The translations under genes and the position numbers were made by a program. Shown here piece by piece: positions 29,640 to 42,245 of a stretch of 64,000 nucleotides of DNA. The notes under the pieces are model-generated. The model did no database searches and had not been told where the DNA came from. It saw nothing but the letters and a program-made list of their open reading frames with translations. The stretch comes from Streptomyces sp. SCSIO 30461 (GTDB lineage: Bacteria > Actinomycetota > Actinomycetes > Streptomycetales > Streptomycetaceae). The stretch spans positions 2,348,001 through 2,412,000 of the forward strand of contig NZ_CP146101.1 in assembly GCF_037023745.1 (NCBI RefSeq), given 5' to 3'. Every line of letters begins with the position of its first letter. The stretch's first letter is position 1.

Positions 29640-29854
29640 AGCGAGAACAGGTCCTTCGTAGCCTGCGCGGTGGACGGGTTACGTTAGCAAGATCACACAA
29701 CTGTCTGCAACACTGTGAAAACAGACCGTCGCGCGCCTAGGATCGGCCGCTGAATCGTGTCGAACGCACTGCTGTGGCGATGAGGTACGGACAAACCCAC
29801 TGGTCCTCGTGGAAGGCACCGCGAAACGCGTGCCGGTGTCGAAATGGGGATCTC
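29640..29854. promoter_or_regulatory. Divergent promoter region of the peptide cluster
   Basis: A 215-bp gap separates the exporter from the first synthetase gene. It includes a lower-GC stretch at 29680-29730 with a short GTCTG/CAGAC inverted pair around it. No box is strong enough to assign to a sigma factor. Both transcription units must start here. Confidence 0.45.
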
Positions 29855-31876
29855 ATGGATCAAAGCGAGGAGTCGTTCGTGGGTGGTGATTCGCGCGGCG
29901 CCTCAGGGCGTTCTGTCGAGTCCGCGGCCTCATGTGCGGACCGCGCCGCGATTTCCGCGCCTGTGGATTCCTTCGGTCTTGAACGATTACCCATCGGCGG
30001 GGAATGCGAGGCGGATACCGGTACCCCCGCCCTGCTGGAATGCTTCGAGGACTGGGCGAAGCGGACTCCGGACGCCCCGGCGGTGGAGTTCGAGGGCCAG
30101 GTGGTCTCGTACGGCGAGCTGAACGCCGGGGCGAACCGGCTCGCCCGCCTGCTGGTCGGGTGTGGTGCGGGGCCGGAGGCGGTCGTCGCCTCCGCGGCGA
30201 CGAGATCGGTCGCGCTGCTGACCGGATTGCTGGCCGTGATGAAGACCGGAGCCTCGTATCTCCCGGTGGATCCCGAGTACCCGGCGGAGCGCATCACCCG
30301 AATGATCGGTGACGCGCGGCCCGGCATGGTGCTCACCACCGTGGACAGTGCGCTGTCTTCCGCGGTGACCACCGCACTGTCCGGACCCTCCGCACTCTCC
30401 CCCGTGCCTCTCCTGTGCCTCGACACCCCCGAGCAGGAGGCCGAATCCCGCCGCCGTTCGGCGGCCGACCTCACGGACGCCGAACGGCACGGCCCGCTGC
30501 ATCCCGCCGGTGCCGCGTACGTGATCTACACCTCGGGATCCACCGGGCATCCCAAAGGCGTGGTGGTGACCCGCGCCGGACTCGCCAATCTGGCGGCCCA
30601 CCTCCGGAGTGCGCTGGCGGTCGAAGTGGCTTCGCGTGTACTGCAGTTCATCTCTCCCAGCTTTGACCCGTTCTTCTGGGAGGTGGCCATGACGTTCTCC
30701 TCGGGCGCCACACTCGTCATGGCGCCCGCCCGCAGCCTGCGGCCCGGACCGGAGCTGCACCGGCTTGTGGACGAGCGGCGTATCACCCATCTCGCGGTGC
30801 CCGCGGCCGTGCTGGGTGTGCTGTCACCGGACGCCCTGCGCTCGGTGGGCAACCTGGTCGTCGGAGGTGAGGCACTGGGAGCCGAATTGGCGCGCCGCTG
30901 GTCGGCGGGACGGACGATGATCAACGCGTACGGGCCCACCGAGACCACCGTCTGCGCCACCATGAGCGATGCGCTGACCGGCTCAGCGCAACCGCCGCCG
31001 ATCGGGCGCCCGGTGCGCCGGACACGTGTGTATGTGCTCGACGAACGGCTGCGGCCGGTTCCTGCCGGAGCCGTGGGCGAGCTCCACATCGCGGGCGTCG
31101 GTCTGGCCCGCGGCTATCTGAACCGGCCCGCGACCAGCGCTGAGCGCTTCGTCGCCGACCCGTACGGTGCCCCGGGCACGAGGATGTACCGCACCGGTGA
31201 TCTCGCCCGATGGAACGGCGACGGCGATCTGGAGTTCGCCGGACGCGCCGACGAGCAGGTGAAGATACGCGGCTACCGGGTCGAACCGGGTGAGATCGAG
31301 GCGGTGCTCGCCGCACATCCCGGGATCACCGGGGCCGCGGTGGTGATACATGAGTACGGCCGCGGTGACCGGAGGATCGTCGCCTACGTGGTGCCGGAAA
31401 GCAGTCCGGTACGCGGTGCCACCGCACAGCTCAGGGAGTCCGTGGCCCGCCGCGCGGCCGCGTTCCTGCCGGCGTTCATGCTGCCGTCGGCCGTGGTCGT
31501 ACTCGACGGCTTCCCGCTGACACCGCACGGCAAGCTGGACCGTGCCGCCCTGCTCCCGCCCGAGATCGGCTCGAGTGGCGCCAGCCGCGAGCCGCGGACC
31601 CCCCGGGAGGAGGCGCTGTGCCGGATGTACGAGGAACTGCTGGGTGCCCAGGCGGCGCCGGGGGCGGCAGGCATCGGCATCGATGACGACTTCTTCGACC
31701 TGGGCGGCCACTCGCTGCTGGTGACCAGGCTGGTCAGCAGGGTTCGTGCGGTGTTCGGCGTCGAAATCACGGTCGAGGTGGTCTACGACGCACCCACGGT
31801 GGCCGACCTTGTGGAGCGGCTCGACACCGCCCCGAAGGCGCGGCCGACGCTACGGCGGATGCGAGGCGCCGGCTGA
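29855..31876 (+). CDS. Nonribosomal peptide synthetase, loading A-T didomain
   Basis: This 673-residue protein has an adenylation domain (about 55-570) and a carrier domain (about 580-655). It starts at ATG 29855 after GGGGAT. A-domain motifs: [19 protein letters not shown] (A2), [17 protein letters not shown] (A3), [13 protein letters not shown] (A5), [18 protein letters not shown] (A6), YRTGDLARW (A7), [20 protein letters not shown] (A8) and [12 protein letters not shown] (A10, Lys present). The carrier has [17 protein letters not shown] with the phosphopantetheine Ser at 620. By-eye code residues are D-P-W-A-V-G-A-V-C-K, aromatic-like (compare DAWTIAAVCK for Phe). There is no condensation domain, so it is a loading or free-standing A-T unit, of the kind that P450s hydroxylate in aminocoumarin and nikkomycin systems. 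Confidence 0.93.
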
Positions 31877-31912
31877 CCGGCTGAATGCCAACCGACGGAA
31901 ACGGGGGACCAC

Positions 31913-33010
31913 ATGGACTTCAGTCTCTTCTACTTCGCAGATGACAGCGTCAGTTGCCCGGATGGCGACGCGGGTCGCTACGAACTCCTGCTGGAGGGAG
32001 CGAGGTTCGCCGACCAGCACGGCTTTCGCGCCGTCTGGACCCCGGAGCGGCACTTCCACGCGTTCGGCGGCCTGTACCCGAACCCGGCTGTGGTGGGTGC
32101 GGCGCTTGCCGCCGCTACCGAGCGCATCGCCATCAGGGCCGGCAGCGTGGTCGCGCCCCTGCACCACCCGCTCCGGATCGCCGAGGAGTGGTCGGTGGTC
32201 GACAACCTCTCCGGGGGCCGGGTCGGAGTCTCCTTCGCCTCGGGCTGGCACCCCGTGGACTTCGCCCTGAGCCGCAGCTCCTACCAGGACCGCAAGCGCG
32301 TCACCCTTGACCGGGTCGAACAGGTCCGCGCCCTGTGGCGCGGCGGCTGCCACGAGGTGGTCGACGGGATCGGCAATCCGGCCTCGGTGCGGATCTACCC
32401 ACCGCCCGTGCAGCCGGAGCTGCCGGTCTGGATCACCAGTGCGGGCGACGCGGACACCTTCCGCGCCGCGGCGACCAGCCGTGCCGGAATACTCACCCAC
32501 CTCCTCCGCCAGGGCATCGGTGAACTGGCCGGAAAGATCGCCGAATACCACAGGGTGCACCGCGAGACCCATGGTGGAGCTCAAGGCCATGTCGTCCTCA
32601 TGCTGCACACCCTGCTGGGGCAGGACCGGGCGGAGGTGAGGGAGGCCGTACGAGGACCCCTCCGTGACTACCTGAGGAGTTCACTCGACCTGGTCACCGG
32701 TTCGCTGGGAAATGACGACCCAGGCTCGCATCCCCATTCCGATCCCGACGCAGAACCGGGCGACGACATCGTTATCGAAGCCGACGCCCTCGATGAGGAG
32801 GACATCGAATTCCTTGTCGCCCGCTCTTTCGACACCTATGTCGAAGAGCGCGGACTCTTCGGCACCGTGGACGAAGCGCGCGTGATCGTGGAGCGCCTGC
32901 GTGACATCGGGGTCGATGAGATCGCCTGCCTGATCGACTTCGGAGTGGACACCGCGACCGTGCTCAAGGGCCTGCGGCAGTTGAACGAACTACGCGAAGT
33001 ATTCGCCTGA
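31913..33010 (+). CDS. Luciferase-like flavin monooxygenase of the MupA/Atu3640 type
   Basis: This 365-residue flavin-dependent protein of the bacterial luciferase fold is well placed after GGGGGACC with ATG 31913. [11 protein letters not shown] starts the barrel, followed by [31 protein letters not shown] (about 36-66), [46 protein letters not shown] (about 78-123) and [18 protein letters not shown]. This pattern ([17 protein letters not shown], SGWHpvDF) is the natural-product LLM subgroup, often fused to or beside NRPS and PKS modules. Members oxidise carrier-bound chains. An unusual acidic Asp/Glu insert follows at about 265-310. It sits between the loading A-T gene and the main synthetase, so it probably tailors the peptide during assembly. 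The exact site is unknown. Confidence 0.85.
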
Positions 33011-33057
33011 CCACGCATTTCCTCGTTGAGGCTCTGAGGCTTGGAGGCCCGGACGAC

Positions 33058-36000
33058 ATGATCCCTCTGTCCTTTTCGCAGCTGCGCTTCTGGTTCCAGG
33101 GTGAGGTGGACGGCGGGGACGCGTCCCTGAACGCGTCGGTCGTGCTCCGCATGTCCGGAGCGCTGGACGTATCGGCGATCACCGATGCCCTTCGGGATGT
33201 GGTGGGACGCCATGAGATCCTGCGCACGCTCTTTGCCGCCCAGGACGACGAGCCCCGGCAGCTGATCCTGGATCCCCGGGACACGGCTGCGCGCCTGGCC
33301 CTGCCGGTCCGCCGGATCGAGGCCGCGGACGTCGAACGGACCATTGCCGTCGCTGCGGACCGCCCCTTCGCCCTGGGGCGGGAGCTGCCGCTGCGGGCGG
33401 AACTGCTCTCGGCCGGGCCCGACGAGTACGTACTGGTGGTCGTGGTGCACCACATCGTGTTCGACGGATGGTCGGCCGGGCCGTTCCTGCGGGATCTCTC
33501 GGTGGCCTATCGAGCGCGGCTCGCGGGTGGTGCGGCGCCCGACTGGGACGACCTTCCGGTGCAGTACGCCGACTTCACCTTGTGGCAGCGTGAGGTGCTG
33601 GGTTCGGCCGATGACGAGGACAGCCTCTGTGCGCGGCAGTTGGCCTACTGGCGGCGCAGGCTCGACGGTCTCCCCGAAGAGCTCGTCCTGCCCACCGACC
33701 GGCCCCGGCCGCCCACCGCGTCGCACCGCGCCGGCGTCGTCCCGTTCCGCGTCGGCCCACGGGTGCACGGCAGGCTCCAGGAGCTTGCCAGGGAGCACGG
33801 AGCAAGTCTGTTCATGGTGCTGCACGCGGGTCTCGCCACGCTGCTCCACCGGTTCGGCGCGGGGTCCGACATCCCGGTGGGCAGCCCGGTCGCGGGGCGT
33901 ACCGACACCGGACTGGAAGACCTCGTCGGCTGTTTCGTGAACACCGTGGTGGTCCGGACCGCTGCCGGTCTCCTGTCGGCGAATCCGTCCTTCAGCGACT
34001 TGCTGCGCCATGTGCGGTCCGATGTGCTGTCCGCTCTCGCCCATCAGGATGTGCCGTTCGAGCAGGTCGTGGAGGCCGTCAACCCGGCGCGCTCCGCGGG
34101 TCGGCACCCCCTGTTCCAGGTCATGCTGGTGCTCCAGAACAACGCGACCGCCGCCGTGCACCTCCCGGGTGTCGAGGCTCGAATGACGACCGAGGGGCGG
34201 GACCGTGCGGTCGCCTTCGACCTGGTCGTCGATGCGACCGAGACCGACGGCGGGCTCGACGTACGGCTGGTCTACGCGGAGGACCTCTTCGACCGCGGCA
34301 CCGCCGACCGCATCGCCCGTGCCTACGAGAGGCTTCTGATCGCCGCGGTGCGGTACCCGGCGGAGCCCATCGGGCATCTGGAGCTGATGGGCAACGCCGA
34401 ACGGCAGTCCCTGCTCGACGCCGGGCGGGGTCCCGTGCACCCCGTACCGGAAGGCTCAGTCCCGATCCGGTTCGAGGAGCAGGCCGCCGCGACGCCCGAC
34501 GCCATCGCGGTGCTGTGCGGTGGGGTCTCGCTCAGCTACGCGGAGCTGGAAGCCCGGTCCAGGCGGTTGGCCGAGGTGCTCCGGGGGTCCGGTGCGGCAC
34601 GCGAGCGCTGTGTCGCCGTGGCGATGGAGCGTTCTGCCGACCTGGTCGTCGCCCTGCTGGCCGTGCTCAGGAGCGGCGCGGCGTATCTGCCCCTCGACCT
34701 GCGGAGCCCGGACCCGCGGTTGCGGGCGATCCTGGAAGAGTCCCGGCCCTGCCTGCTGCTCACTGACCTGTCCGCGCGTGAGCGGGCGGGCACATGGGCG
34801 CGGTCGTTCGACGGCCTCACGGTGCTGGACGTCACCGATCCCGTGCCGACGGCATCGACGGCGGACGCGGAGCCGATCGGTGGCCTGCCCGGCATCCATG
34901 CGGAGGGCGCCGCCTATGTGATGTACACATCCGGTTCCACCGGCCGTCCCAAGGGCGTGCTGGTGACCCACCGGAACATCCTCGCGCTCTGTGCGGACCC
35001 GTGCTGGGCCGACGGCACCCACCGTCGCGTACTGGCGCACTCGCCGCACTCGTTCGACGCCTCCACCTTCGAGATCTGGGTGCCGCTGCTGGGCGGCGGC
35101 ACCGTCGTGGTCGCGCCGCGGGCCGAGTCCGCCGTGCAGACCGTCGAGCAGGCCGTCGCCCGGCACGGGGCGACCAGCGCCTTCCTCACCGCCTCGCTGT
35201 TCAGCGCCCTGGTTGCGCAGCGGAGCCCCGCCCTGGGGCAGTTGCGGCACATCTGGGTCGGCGGCGAGGAGCCGTCACCCGCAGCCGTGCGGCAGATGTT
35301 GGAGGACTTTCCCGGCACCCTGCTCACCAACGGTTACGGACCGACGGAGAACACCACCTTCACCACCTCGCACCGCTTCCGCCCGGAGCCGACCGCCGCC
35401 CGGGACACCAAACCCTCGATCGGGTGTGGGTTGGCTAATACGCGGGTGTATGTGCTGGATGGGTGTTTGGTTCCGGTGCCGTTGGGTGTGGTGGGGGAGT
35501 TGTATGTGGGTGGTGCGGGGGTGGCTCGGGGGTATGTGGGTCGTCCTGGTGTGACGGCGGGTCGTTTTGTGGCGGATCCGTTTGTGGGTTCGGGGGAGCG
35601 GATGTATCGCACGGGGGATTTGGTGCGGTGGTCCGGTGTGGGGGAGTTGGAGTTTGTCGGGCGGGTTGACGATCAGGTGAAGGTGCGGGGTTTCCGGATC
35701 GAGTTGGGGGAGGTGCGGGGGGCGCTTGAGGCTGATCCGGCGGTGGGTCAGGCGGTGGTGGTGGTGCGTGAGGATCGGCTGGGTGAGCGTCGGTTGACGG
35801 GGTATGTGGTGCCGGTCGCGGGTGTGGATGTGGTGGGTTTGGCTGGGGTGTTGGTGCGTCGGGTGGGGGAGGTGCTGCCGGATTACATGGTGCCTTCGGT
35901 GGTGGTGTTGGAGGGTGGGTTGCCTTTGACGCCGAATGGGAAGGTGGATCGGGCGGCGCTTCCGGTGCCTGGTGGGGATGGCGGTGGGGCTGATGGTGGG

Positions 36001-39000
36001 GAGGGGGGTCGGTCGCGGGGGCCGGTCGGTGCGGTGGAGGAGTTGTTGTGTGGTCTGTTCGCCGAGTTGCTGGGACGTGAGCGGGTCGGTGTCGATGCCG
36101 ACTTCTTCGCACTCGGCGGCCACTCACTGCTCGCGGTCCGGCTCGTCAGCCGCCTCCGTGCCGAGCTGGACGCCGAGATCGACATGCGTACGATCTTCGA
36201 GGCCCGTACACCGGCCGAGCTCGCCGCCCGTTTCGCCACTGCGGCGCCCTCCCGTACCTCGCTGGAGCCATGGCCCATCCGCCCGGAGAGCCTGCCGCTG
36301 TCCTTCTCCCAGTCGCGGTTCTGGTTCCACGGCGAACTCTCCGAAGGCTCCGACGGGGAACCGCAGACGATCACCACGGTGCTGAGGCTGACCGGCGAGC
36401 TGGACACGGAGGCGCTGCGGGCCGCGCTGCGGGACGTGGCAGGGCGCCACGAGAGCCTGCGTACGGTCTTCCCCGTCGTGGACGGCGCCGCGCACCAACA
36501 CGTCCTCGACCTCGACTCCCCCGCTGTCACCTCCCGACTGGAGCTGCCCGTCGACCGGGTCGAGCCCGGACGGCTGGCGCGGACCATGGCCGAGGCTTCG
36601 GGGCAGGCCTTCGACCTGACGGCGGAACCACCGCTGCGGGTACGACTGCTCGCCACTGACGACAGCGAACACATCCTGCTGGTGACGATCCATCACATCG
36701 TGTTCGACGGATGGTCGGCCGGGCCGTTCCTGCGGGATCTCTCGGTGGCCTATCGAGCGCGGCTCGCGGGTGGTGCGGCGCCCGACTGGGACGACCTTCC
36801 GGTGCAGTACGCCGACTTCACCTTGTGGCAGCGTGAGGTGCTGGGTTCGGCCGATGACGAGGACAGCCTCTGTGCGCGGCAGTTGGCCTACTGGCGGCGC
36901 AGGCTCGACGGTCTCCCCGAAGAGCTCGTCCTGCCCACCGACCGGCCCCGGCCGCCCACCGCGTCGCACCGGGCGGAATCCGTCGCGCTGCGGCTGGGAG
37001 CCGACGACCACGGGCGGCTCGCAGGGCTGGCCCGGCGGCACGGGGCGAGCCTGTTCACTGTGCTGCACGCGGGACTCGCTGCCTTCCTGCACCGGCTCGG
37101 CGCGGGCACCGACATCGCGGTGGGCAGCCCGGTCGCCGGTCGTACCGATGTCGCGATGGACGAGCTGGTCGGCTGCTTCGTCAACACCGTCGTCATACGG
37201 ACCGACGTGAGCGGCGAACCGGACTTCGGCGCGCTGGTCGACCGGGCGCGCACCGAGGTGGTTGCCGCGCTCGACCACCAGGACGTGCCGTTCGAGAAGG
37301 TGGTGGAAGCCGTCAACCCGCCCCGTACCCCGGCTCGCCACCCGGTGTTCCAGACCATGCTCAGCCTGCAGAACAACGCGGCGGCCACGGTGGACCTGCC
37401 CGGACTTGACGCGGTGCGGCCGGCGACGGACGACCGGTATCCGTCGATCGCCTTCGACCTGCTCTTCGACATCACCGAGACCGGCACCGGTCTCGAGGGG
37501 CGGCTGGTCTACGCCCAGGACCTGTTCGACCGTGCCACCGCCGAACGCATGGCGGGCTGGTTCGAACTGTTCCTCGCGGCGGCGGCGGCCGATCCGGCCC
37601 GCCCCGTGGGACGTCTTGACCTCATCTCTTCGGGTGAGCGCACGCACATGCTGGAATCGGGCAGCGGCCACGCCCGCGAGGTGAGCGCCCGGACCGTGCC
37701 CGAACGGGTGCGGGAGTGGGCGGACGAGACCCCGGACGCCGTCGCGGCGGTCTGCGGTGGCGACTCGCTCAGCTACCGGGAGCTGGACACCCGGTCCCGG
37801 CGCCTGGCGCGGTATCTGTGCGCACGGGGCGCCGGGCCCGAACGGGTTGTAGCCGTTGCCATGGAACGCTCGCTCGACCTGCTTGTCGCCCTCATCGCCG
37901 TACACAGGTCCGGTGCCGCCTACCTCCCCATCGACCCCGGGCACCCCAGGGCGCGGATCGCGGCGGTGCTGTCCGGCGCGCGCCCCGGCTCGCCTGTGCT
38001 GGTTCTGTCCGACCGCGCCACGCGTGCGGCGGTGGGTGAGGACGGCTGGCTGGCACTGGACGACCCCGAGACGGCGTCCCGACTTGCCGCGCCGGCGGAC
38101 GACGACGCATCGGTCGGCGGGCCACAGGTCCGGACCGACCCGCACGGCCTGGCCTATGCGATCCACACTTCCGGATCCACCGGCCGGCCCAAGGGCGTCG
38201 CCGTCACGCATCGGAACCTCACCAACCTGCTGGACGCCATGTGCGACCGGATGCCCCTTGCGCGAGACGACCGATGGCTCGCCGTGACCACCGTCGCCTT
38301 CGACATCGCGCACCTCGAACTGTTGCTGCCACTGCGCGAAGGCGCATGCGTCGTCATCGCCGGATCCGACGAGGCGAAGGACCCGTTCGCACTCGCCCGG
38401 CTGATCGAGCGGCACATCGTGACGGTGATGCAGGCGACCCCGTCGTTGTGGTCCGTGGTCGTCGACAGCGTTCCGGAGGCCGTCCGAGGACTGCGGGTAC
38501 TGGTGGGCGGTGAGACGCTCGGCGCCAGGCTCGCCGCCGAGCTCACCGATCGGGCGCGCGAGGTGATCAATGTCTACGGACCCACCGAGACCACCATCTG
38601 GTCGCTGGCCGCGCCCGTGGGCCGGGGCGAAGGGCGTGTGCCGCCGATCGGGTGTGGGTTGGCTAATACGCGGGTGTATGTGCTGGATGGGTGTTTGGTT
38701 CCGGTGCCGTTGGGTGTGGTGGGGGAGTTGTATGTGGGTGGTGCGGGGGTGGCTCGGGGGTATGTGGGTCGTCCTGGTGTGACGGCGGGTCGTTTTGTGG
38801 CGGATCCGTTTGTGGGTTCGGGGGAGCGGATGTATCGCACGGGGGATTTGGTGCGGTGGTCCGGTGTGGGGGAGTTGGAGTTTGTCGGGCGGGTTGACGA
38901 TCAGGTGAAGGTGCGGGGTTTCCGGATCGAGTTGGGGGAGGTGCGGGGGGCGCTTGAGGCTGATCCGGCGGTGGGTCAGGCGGTGGTGGTGGTGCGTGAG

Positions 39001-41016
39001 GATCGGCTGGGTGAGCGTCGGTTGACGGGGTATGTGGTGCCGGTCGCGGGTGTGGATGTGGTGGGTTTGGCTGGGGTGTTGGTGCGTCGGGTGGGGGAGG
39101 TGCTGCCGGATTACATGGTGCCTTCGGTGGTGGTGTTGGAGGGTGGGTTGCCTTTGACGCCGAATGGGAAGGTGGATCGGGCGGCGCTTCCGGTGCCTGG
39201 TGGGGATGGCGGTGGGGCTGATGGTGGGGAGGGGGGTCGGTCGCGGGGGCCGGTCGGTGCGGTGGAGGAGTTGTTGTGTGGTCTGTTCGCCGAGTTGCTG
39301 GGACGTGAGCGGGTCGGTGTCGATGCCGACTTCTTCGCACTCGGCGGCGACAGCATCAGCTCGATCCGCCTGGTGTCAAGAGCCCGCGCCAAGGGCGTGG
39401 TGATCACCGCTCGAGAGGTGTTCCGCCACCGGACCGTCGAGGCACTGGCCGCACACGCACGACTGCGGCAGCCCAAGGCGAAGCCCGGCGCCGAGACCGC
39501 GAAGCCCGCGGAGGAAACGGCATCCGCCCCGGCGACGGCGAATCCCGGCGACGCGCTCACCGGACCCGAGCCGACCGGTCCCGTACCGCTCACTCCCATC
39601 CTCCGCTGGCAGCGGGACAGGGGCGGCCCGGTCGACGGTTTCCACCAGTACGTACTCGTCCGCACTCCTGCCGACCTGGAGCTGCCGAGACTGCATGCGA
39701 TACTCCAGTCGCTGCTCGACCGCCACGACACCCTGCGGATGCGCCTGCGGCGCACCCCGGAATGGCGGCTCGACATCCTGCCGCGCGGCGCGGTCACGGT
39801 GGACGGACGCATCGCCCGGGTGCCGGTCGACGGCACCGGCACCGGTATCGATGGAGTGCAGGCGGAGTGGGAGCGGACACTGCGCGTCCAGGTCGATCTG
39901 GCGCGCGGGCGGCTCGCACCGGAGACCGGGAACATGCTCCAGGCCGTGTGGTTCGACACGGGCCCCGGGAACCCCGGACGCCTGCTTCTCCTGATCAACC
40001 ATCTGTCGGTGGACGGTGTCTCCTGGCGGATCCTCCTCCAAGACCTGCGCGGTGCCTGGACCCAGCCGGCGGCCGAGCCGCCGCGGCCCGCGGCCTCGTT
40101 CCCGGAGTGGGGTGGTCGACTGGAGAAGAACGCACTCGACCGCTCCGTCGAACTCCCCTACTGGAGCACGGTGCTGGAAGGAGCGGGCGAACTGTTCGAC
40201 GGTGCCGCCGTGCTGCCCGGACGCGATGTCCTGAGAACCCAGGAGACCATCTCCCGCGTGCTGACGGCGGACCGCGCCGAAGCCCTGCTGACCCGGTTGC
40301 CCGCCCGTCTCGGCACCGGTGTCAACACAGTGCTGCTCGCGGCACTGGGCCTCGCCCTACGGGGCTGGCGCGCCGCGTACTTCCCGAGGAACACCGCGCC
40401 GTTCCTGGTGGATGTGGAGGGCCACGGCCGTGAAGCGCTGGCGGACGACCCCGCGGACGAGCCGGACATCTCCACCACCGTCGGCTGGTTCACCAGCATG
40501 TTCCCCGTCCGCCTCGACACTCGGAGCGATGCCCCGTACGACGCCCTGCGCTCCGTACGGGACCAACTGGACACCATGCAGGACAAGGGACTCGGCTACG
40601 GTCTGCTGCGCCATCTGAACCCGGCCACCGCACCCGTGCTGGAGCGGCTGCCCCGGGGGCAGATCCTCTTCAACTACCTCGGCAGGTTCGAGAGTCCGGA
40701 CGACACGGACTGGTCACTCGCGCCCGAAGCCGCTGCGGTAGGCAGCGGCGGGGACCCGGACATGCCGCTCACCCACCTGCTGGAGGTGTCCGCCGTAGCG
40801 CTTCAGCGGAAGGGCGGCCCCGAGCTGCACATCAGCTGGGCGTATGCGTCCGGGCTGCTGGAGCAGCACCAGGTCGACGACCTGGCCGACCGCTGGACCG
40901 GGGCGCTCGCCCATCTGGCCGACCACTTCGAAGAGGCCGCCACTGCCGACGCCGCCGGAGCCGGAGCCGGAGCCGCCGAGGGCGTCGAGCCCATCGAGGG
41001 AGGGGCTTGCGCATGA
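33058..41016 (+). CDS. Nonribosomal peptide synthetase C-A-T-C-A-T-E
   Basis: This 2652-residue synthetase, with GGAGG before ATG 33058, adds two residues to the chain. Domains (approximate residues): C 2-430 (HHIVFDG, His near 131); A 465-975 ([14 protein letters not shown], 'PTENTTFTT'; code D-A-F-F-W-G-G-T-F-K, branched-aliphatic-like); T with Ser 1023 (LGGHSLLAV); C 1075-1510 (HHIVFDG near 1212); A 1540-2040 ([11 protein letters not shown]; code D-I-L-Q-L-G-V-I-W-K, close to the glycine code DILQLGLIWK); T with Ser 2099 (LGGDSISSI); E 2175-2640 ([11 protein letters not shown] near 2315, EGHGREAL Glu 2454, [13 protein letters not shown]). There is no thioesterase. Two pairs of identical DNA blocks lie inside the gene. 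Its stop overlaps the P450 start (ATGA). Confidence 0.94.
33451..33728 (+). repeat. 278-bp block in first C domain, identical to 36694-36971
   Basis: Base-for-base copy of 36694-36971, offset 3243 bp. It codes for the second half of the catalytic core of the C domain, from just after the HH of HHIVFDG to [10 protein letters not shown]. The flanking sequence of the two C domains differs at many synonymous sites, so this patch was homogenised recently (gene conversion or module duplication). Confidence 0.95.
35417..36120 (+). repeat. 704-bp block (A-domain C-terminal part plus start of T), identical to 38645-39348
   Basis: Identical to 38645-39348 (offset 3228 bp), it runs from the CGATCGGG start just before [12 protein letters not shown] to the LGG before the carrier Ser. 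It encodes motifs A6 to A10 and most of the T domain. Codon use changes at its borders: TTG, GGT, GTT, CGT and GGG are frequent inside, while GCC/CTC/GTC-type codons dominate outside. Confidence 0.95.
36694..36971 (+). repeat. 278-bp block in second C domain, identical to 33451-33728
   Basis: Partner of the repeat at 33451-33728. Sequence identity ends sharply on both sides (previous base and base after 36971 differ), which marks a conversion tract. Confidence 0.95.
38645..39348 (+). repeat. 704-bp block, identical to 35417-36120
   Basis: Second copy of the A-domain tail and T segment. Preceding code-determining parts of the two A domains are unrelated, whereas this tail is identical, so the variable core has been exchanged onto a shared scaffold or the tail was copied. 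Confidence 0.95.
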
Positions 41017-42245
41017 ACGGCGGACAGTACGAAGACACCGATCCTTCGGAGGTCGACCTCGCGGATCCCGCCTCGCACGCCGAGCGGGACCTCACCCCAC
41101 TGTGGCACCGTCTGCGTGAGAAGGAGCCACTGCACTGGCAGCCGCCCAATGGGGCCCGCCCCGGCTTCTGGGTCCTGACGCGCCACCGCGATGTGTCCGC
41201 TGCCTACCGCGACACCCAGCGCTTCCGCTCGGATCGCGGCAATGTGCTGGACACCCTCCTGACCGGCGGTGACTCCGCGGCCGGAATGATGCTCCCCCTC
41301 ATGGACGGCCCCCGACACACCGCGCTGCGCGGCGCCCTGATGAAGGCGTTCTCCCCACGGTCGCTGTCCGGAGTGGTCGACAGCATCCGCGTGGCCTCCC
41401 GTGATCTGGTCACCGAGTTCCTGGAACGAGGACGGTGCGACTTCGCCACCGACATCGCCGGGCTGCTGCCGCTGCGTGCGATCTGCGACCTGCTGGGCGT
41501 ACCGCCCCGTGACCGGCGGCAACTGCTCGACATGACCTCATCGGCCCTCGGCTCGCACAGCGAGGAGGCACTGCGGCAGAACGCGTGGGTGGCCAAAGGC
41601 GAGATCCTGCTGTACTTCTCCGACCTCGCCGCGCGGCGGCGTGCGAATCCCGGCGACGACATCGTCAGTCTCCTCACCCAGTGCACCGTCGAGGGCAGGC
41701 GGTTGACGGACGAGGAGGTGGTCTTCAACTGCTACAGCCTGATACTAGGCGGCGACGAGACCACCCGCCTCGCACTCGTGGGAGGCGTGGCCGCGCTGCT
41801 GGACGCACCCGCCGAGTGGGAGGCGTTCAGGTCCGGGCGGACCGCCACGGAGAGCGCCGTCGAGGAGGTGCTGCGTTGGACGACACCGACCCTGCACGCC
41901 GGGCGCACCGCGGGAGCGGACGTCGACCTGCACGGCCGGACCATCAAGAAGGGGGACATCGTCACCCTGTGGAACGCTTCCGCCAACCGGGACGGCGACG
42001 CATTCGCCGACCCGGACCGGCTTCTGCTGTCCCGGCAGCCGAACCGGCATCTCACGTTCGCCTACGGGGCGCACTTCTGCCTCGGCGCCTTCCTCGCCCG
42101 CGCCGAGATCGGCGCCGTACTGGACGACCTGCGTCAGCTGGTGGGCACCATGGCGGCGGCCGGACCAGCGCGGCGCGTGTACTCCAACTTCCTGACGGGG
42201 CTGGTCTCCCTGCCGATCGTCTGGACCACGTCGGCGCGGCGGTGA
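41013..42245 (+). CDS. Cytochrome P450
   Basis: This 410-residue soluble bacterial P450 starts at ATG 41013 overlapping the synthetase stop (ATGA), so its translation is coupled to the NRPS. The heme loop [17 protein letters not shown] (about 347-363) contains the axial Cys. The I-helix has [13 protein letters not shown] (about 240-252), with the usual acid-alcohol pair here as Glu-Thr, and the ExxR Glu/Arg pair lies in EEVLRWTTP (about 285). Length and organisation fit P450s that hydroxylate carrier-bound amino acids. The free-standing A-T protein of this cluster, with an aromatic-like code, is a natural partner for beta-hydroxylation. The target residue is not proven. Confidence 0.92.

Follow-up and report, generated by a model that had tools for sequence, protein, structure and literature searches.

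A gene for a nonribosomal peptide synthetase (NRPS) in Streptomyces sp. SCSIO 30461 contains the same 704-bp segment twice, once in each of its two modules. The gene lies in a stretch of 64,000 nucleotides (the window; positions 2,348,001 to 2,412,000 of contig NZ_CP146101.1), which is part of a single 8.05-Mb contig, and coordinates are given as positions in the window. The 2652-residue protein matches the Pfam families Condensation (three times), AMP-binding, AMP-binding_C, and PP-binding (twice each), and no polyketide synthase (PKS) domain is among its Pfam matches. From these matches, we read the domain order as C-A-T-C-A-T-E (C, condensation; A, adenylation; T, thiolation; E, epimerization). 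The third Condensation match is presumably the E domain, given its position and motifs.

The two copies (35417–36120 and 38645–39348) agree at all 704 bases, as the earlier note on this DNA had claimed, and the identity does not extend by even one base on either side, so this is a maximal exact repeat. The copies are 3228 bp apart, which is divisible by three. In the protein, the identical run (residues 788–1021 and 1864–2097) extends from IGCGLA, past the A5 region, to FFALGG, and is followed by HSLL in module 1 and by DSIS in module 2. We will refer to this part of each module (the small subdomain of the A domain, or A-sub; the A-T linker; and the start of the T domain) as the tail, and to the preceding part of the A domain as the A-core. 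The identity of the tails is far beyond chance: in the six non-homogenised orthologs with DNA sequences, described below, tails 1 and 2 differ at 22–25% of positions, and at 24% divergence, the probability of 0 differences in 702 positions is 2e-84. The A-cores of modules 1 and 2 are 45% identical as protein and 64% identical as DNA, so the claim that the substrate-code halves differ completely was overstated.

The earlier note also described the blocks as rich in TTG, GGT, and CGT codons, unlike the flanking sequence, and this was borne out by codon counts and by GC3, whose calculation along the gene it had suggested. Leucine is encoded by TTG in 16/24 cases in the block and 12/264 cases in the remainder of the gene (Fisher 2e-13), and glycine by GGT in 21/47 and 36/174 cases. 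The contrast is weakest for arginine as CGT (6/22 and 23/212). GC3 is 0.714 in the block and 0.85–0.88 in the flanks. The note attributed this to alien codon use, but we see an asymmetry of the coding strand instead: C and A are scarce while G and T are abundant (third positions are 62% G, 28% T, 9% C, and 1% A), and, as described below, the asymmetry extends to the amino acids. We dropped the idea of a donor's codon table after calculating the skews. The coding strand of the block has a GC skew of 0.54 and a TA skew of 0.52, as compared to absolute values of at most 0.10 in the A-cores, C2, and E (C1 has a TA skew of 0.16). When the 64 kb is scanned in 150-bp windows, both skews exceed 0.3 in the same direction over an extended region only in the two blocks; elsewhere, two single 150-bp windows also pass this threshold.

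These features are reminiscent of GRINS (genetic repeats of intense nucleotide skew), which PMC9899208, PMC10394414, and PMC11907408 describe as strongly skewed in both GC and TA, linked to gene conversion, and repeated within one assembly line with over 80% identity across a minimum of 500 bp. We applied the definition from PMC9899208 to 29774–42245; PMC10394414 gives a second wording. Two regions, 35384–36163 and 38624–39373, have the required repeats, with mean best identities of 0.98 and 0.99 and GC/TA skews of 0.53/0.51 and 0.55/0.51, so both copies qualify. Another exact repeat between the modules, absent from the earlier note, of 278 bp around the HHxxxDG motif of the C domains and with ordinary codon use, does not qualify by that definition and indicates copying without skew. 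The window's repeat resembles the GRINS of PKSs in its location within one assembly line, its identity and length, and its strong skews. It differs in that it sits in a pure NRPS and spans A-sub to T, while these three papers treat PKSs and PKS-NRPS hybrids. Skews in PKSs and NRPSs are described as favoring recombination and gene conversion (PMC11915812), and shared skew patterns are described in NRPS genes (PMC9205934), so we make no claim to a first report of skewed repeats in NRPSs.

Overall, we consider it about 80% probable that the blocks are two copies of a GRINS-type element in an NRPS, in which native sequence encoding A-sub, the linker, and the start of T was recoded, and that recurrent and recent gene conversion has kept the copies identical.

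To compare orthologs, we searched with the C1-A1 region (at least 77 loci) or the whole protein. This gave 11 orthologs, including the window's gene: seven others have DNA sequences (L038, L039, L140, L141, L160, L161, and L162) and three are known from protein only (P0061, P0067, and P0108; 61–64% identity over 99–100% of the query, from the best 120 of 3378 proteins). L142 is L039 again. L143 is a longer synthetase that aligns piecewise; its tails are unskewed, and we excluded it from the counts. L038 and L140 are not independent because their A-cores, tails, and E domains are 96–98% alike.

In four of the 11 orthologs (the window's gene, P0061, P0067, and L160), the protein sequences of tails 1 and 2 are 0.996–1.0 identical; in the remaining seven, they are 0.69–0.73 identical. 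Among the eight orthologs with DNA, both of the homogenised genes are skewed and none of the other six are. In tail 1, valine makes up 19–22% of residues and glycine 16–20% in the four homogenised orthologs (valine is 19% in the window's gene), as compared to 10–11% and 10–12% in the other seven. Therefore, the bias extends to the protein; GRINS are known to shift protein composition. Homogenised tails are thus found in 4/4 orthologs with a shifted amino-acid composition and in 0/7 without, which is an association only. At residues that are conserved with L038 or L161, 61–65% of codons in the tail are changed, as compared to 39–46% in the other domains, and most changes in the tail replace C by G or T, while the reverse is hardly seen.

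L160, from another genome, has the same arrangement: its tails are 0.994 identical as DNA, so that 0.6% differences are kept, and its skews are 0.52–0.57. This bears on whether the assembler or polishing made two similar tails identical. The complete identity over 704 bp speaks for such an artefact. Yet each copy is flanked by unique sequence within a single contig, and P0061 and P0067, along with L160, show the arrangement too, which makes an artefact very unlikely.

Phylogenetic trees indicate which part moved. The A-cores of the 11 orthologs split into module-1 and module-2 groups with 100/100 support and one label change. In contrast, the tree of the 22 tails has six label changes, and each of the four homogenised genes pairs its own two tails. 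So, the A-cores stayed in their own modules, and homogenisation affected the tails. We also built a quick tree of 156 tails, in which the 22 tails of the orthologs, whether skewed or unskewed, form one clade with the two tails of L143 (SH-aLRT 97). Skewed tails from unrelated synthetases are absent from that clade, so this gene family has the tail as its own native sequence. Among 166 tails compared, the nearest to the block is from P0061 (79% amino-acid identity), and unrelated synthetases reach 69.5% at best.

The earlier note had inferred that A-core parts were swapped onto an imported scaffold. Its recombination between modules is supported, but the direction is not, as swapping of A-cores is contradicted by their separation by module, and neither is the imported source, as the nearest tail belongs to an orthologous synthetase and all the ortholog tails group together. 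Import from an unrelated synthetase could explain why the block's codon use is unlike its flanks, and unrelated Streptomyces synthetases do carry similarly skewed tails, at the 69.5% identity just given or less. Set against the vertical A-cores and the clade of ortholog tails, we find import very unlikely. We also ran the suggested search for a donor of the block: across 392 genomes from the same genus, including its own, the best of the matches listed were 83% identical over 260 bp or 75% identical over nearly the full length, and elsewhere in its own genome there were only partial matches of 66–70%. We rejected a foreign donor, as no close one was found in the own genome or among these matches.

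Another scenario is that a whole module was recently duplicated and that its A-core and most of its C domain were replaced afterward. This would account for exact stretches between the modules in both the C domain (278 bp) and the tail (704 bp). However, the two-module architecture and both types of A-core are common to all 11 orthologs, and the split of the core trees by module means that the modules are old, which contradicts a duplication; we consider it extremely improbable. Judging from the sequences, the tail belongs to this gene family, was recoded there, and has been homogenised across the two modules, with gene conversion as the likeliest route.

PMC8097286 describes natural recombination in NRPSs that keeps A-sub and T together. 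The window's tract likewise has A-sub and T together, with borders around the A-core. In that report, the A-core moves; here, the A-cores remain in place and it is the complementary segment that has been homogenised. Modules in biosynthetic clusters have also been described as evolving in concert (PMC4256081): modules within one gene are more alike than orthologs, as they are here, although the case in the window's gene is confined to one segment and has extreme skew.

Skew and homogenisation also go together in other synthetases. Among 22 Streptomyces loci chosen by similarity to C1-A1, we asked which tails have a partner tail with at least 95% identity: 3/3 tails with both skews above 0.2 do, but just 1/59 of the others. 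This lone exception has a GC skew of 0.2 and is itself the partner of a skewed tail. In 12 loci that were picked through the skewed block, 20/28 skewed tails and 0/14 others have such a partner (two unskewed tails are at 92%). Strong skew is rare: leaving out the loci picked through the block, both skews exceed 0.25 in 2/73 Streptomyces tails, 0/69 tails from other actinobacteria, and 0/114 others (from the C1-A1 search). In L144 and L145, three skewed tails are 98–100% identical, which shows that homogenisation is not limited to pairs of modules. In L017 and L028, which are two further Streptomyces synthetases, the A-core is recoded 900 bp upstream of the tail: TTG accounts for 33/35 and 30/30 leucine codons, so the skew can cover A-cores too.

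The borders of the copied tract are close to those of the skew. The best changepoint in G/T content is 5 nt inside the left edge and 28 nt inside the right edge in both of the window's copies, and 31 and 60 nt inside the repeat edges in L160. By these best estimates the skew is confined to the repeat; the 2-log-likelihood range for the left edge of the window's copy 2 extends 30 nt outside. On the left, 9/15 pairs have a border within 30 nt of the IG site, and the other six extend 75–1000 nt further.

The right border is at the LGG|H/D motif of the T domain, and all four homogenised orthologs, and none of the other seven, have it. LGGDS is linked to E partners, and T2 of the window's gene precedes an E domain. 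All five pairs of tails with H-type and D-type T domains (the window's gene, L160, P0061, P0067, and L146) stop at LGG, as compared to two of 14 pairs of the same type (L150 and L151). We set the cutoff of 10 nt for this comparison after seeing the values, and because pairs share loci, the P value (Fisher 0.0018) is only indicative. In PMC10212144, LGGHSL is tied to LCL-type C domains and LGGDSI to DCL-type C domains. The right border is also directly past the two glycines of FFxxGGxS, like the fusion site of XUT-IV (PMC12668312), except that XUT-IV is a designed fusion and the window's tract is natural.

If the blocks are GRINS-type elements, as we favor, then the coding strand of the family's own A-sub, linker, and early T sequence would have gained G and T at the expense of C and A, and homologous recombination, through gene conversion, would keep the copies in modules 1 and 2 identical. 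The A-cores would remain different because the tracts, by themselves or under selection, would stop at the A-core on the left. On the right, the tracts would end at the part of the T domain that is specific to its partner (LGGHS before C and LGGDS before E). We propose that a G/T-rich strand favors conversion through RecA, whose filaments have their greatest stability on sequence of the TGG type. This is reported for E. coli RecA and TGG repeats in PMC3763553. TGG, GTG, and GGT make up 24% of the coding strand in the block and 4–6% in the unskewed tails of orthologs, a difference of 4- to 7-fold. Most of the TGG enrichment follows from base composition (0.199 expected and 0.241 observed). As for G-quadruplexes, one motif with four GGG runs starts in the window's tail, none starts in the tail of L160, and motifs with runs of two Gs are enriched.

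Several observations weigh against this account. The C-domain repeat is exact and has no skew, so skew is not needed for copying. Of the 28 skewed tails in the loci chosen for skew, eight lack a 95% partner within the stretch fetched. The borders also coincide with loss of homology, so a right border at LGG would be expected either from this loss alone or from selection acting on the portion of T that is specific to its partner. The contrast of 4/4 with 0/7 orthologs is not made of independent cases, and P0061, P0067, and P0108 are known as protein only. Finally, similarity among the skewed tails exceeds that of the remainder of their genes by 0.115 on average, as compared to 0.026 among the other seven and 0.021 between the groups; this excess may reflect shared ancestry, exchange between strains, or convergence.

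In particular, a tail that was already skewed might have been exchanged between orthologous synthetases of different strains and then homogenised between modules. The tails of the four genes are 0.079–0.154 more alike than the remainder of each gene (six pairs), although shared composition raises similarity too. The four homogenised genes form one clade in the 22-tail tree (96/98), as exchange would predict, but two pairs (92 and 94) in the 156-tail tree, so the skewed state may have a single origin or several, or may have passed from one ortholog to another. As under vertical descent, the window's gene groups with P0061 in the tails (97/96), in A-core 1 (100/99), and, less firmly, in A-core 2 (89/95). 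We view exchange between strains as unlikely, but it deserves more weight than the other alternatives.

Coordinates of the NRPS gene, its domains, and its repeats within the window
Feature	Coordinates	Strand	Remarks
NRPS gene, 2652 aa, read as C-A-T-C-A-T-E	33058..41016	+	Pfam matches
GRINS-type repeat copy 1, module 1	35417..36120	+	End of A after A5, A-sub, A-T linker, and start of T to FFALGG
GRINS-type repeat copy 2, module 2	38645..39348	+	Identical to copy 1
A-core of module 1	34465..35415	+	Vertical; ordinary codon use
A-core of module 2	37690..38643	+	Vertical; ordinary codon use; amino-acid identity to A-core 1 as in text
Remainder of T domain 1, from HSLL	36121..36237	+	Beyond the repeat; 47% nucleotide identity to the remainder of T2; no matching skew
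Remainder of T domain 2, from DSIS	39349..39462	+	Beyond the repeat; ahead of E
Exact inter-module repeat in C1, 278 bp	33451..33728	+	No GC skew; not a GRINS by the definition used
Exact inter-module repeat in C2, 278 bp	36694..36971	+	No GC skew; not a GRINS by the definition used
E domain (by position and motifs)	39565..40917	+	Partner of T2

The neighboring genes (29774–33010 and 41007–42245) encode an A-T protein, a luciferase-like monooxygenase of the MupA/Atu3671 family, and a cytochrome P450, and they likely form one cluster with the NRPS gene. The specificity code of A2, which we assigned by hand, looks glycine-like, yet an E domain comes next. The best match to dnaA (G000:C1:136771-137256) is at 0.137 Mb, near one end of the contig. 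In Streptomyces, dnaA is expected near the middle of the chromosome, so the contig may be rotated. Because this location of dnaA leaves the direction of the replication fork at the NRPS gene uncertain, a replication-strand cause of the skew is at most a candidate.

These results caution against taking unusual codons in an assembly-line gene as proof of a foreign origin. The orthologs are a natural experiment: 11 synthetases with one architecture, of which four are homogenised and seven are not. In the two homogenised genes with DNA, the ends of the skewed segment and of the copied segment are within 5 to 60 nt of each other. The tracts also provide borders drawn by nature, one past A5 and one at the pair of glycines in the T motif, and engineers already use one of these.

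The original GRINS paper (Nivina et al., 2021) reportedly speaks of many gene families and leaves open both the origin of GRINS and whether skew causes conversion. Tentatively, we speculate that GRINS might be self-maintaining recombination elements that are made by recoding in place, with a G/T-rich strand that is favored by RecA and copies that keep converting each other. If so, recoding in place nearly doubles the valine content of the tail and leaves the substrate-choosing A-cores free. It would also mean that in-frame repeats 3228 bp apart set up losses or gains of one module: because this spacing is divisible by three, the reading frame would be preserved when a crossover between the copies deletes or inserts a module.

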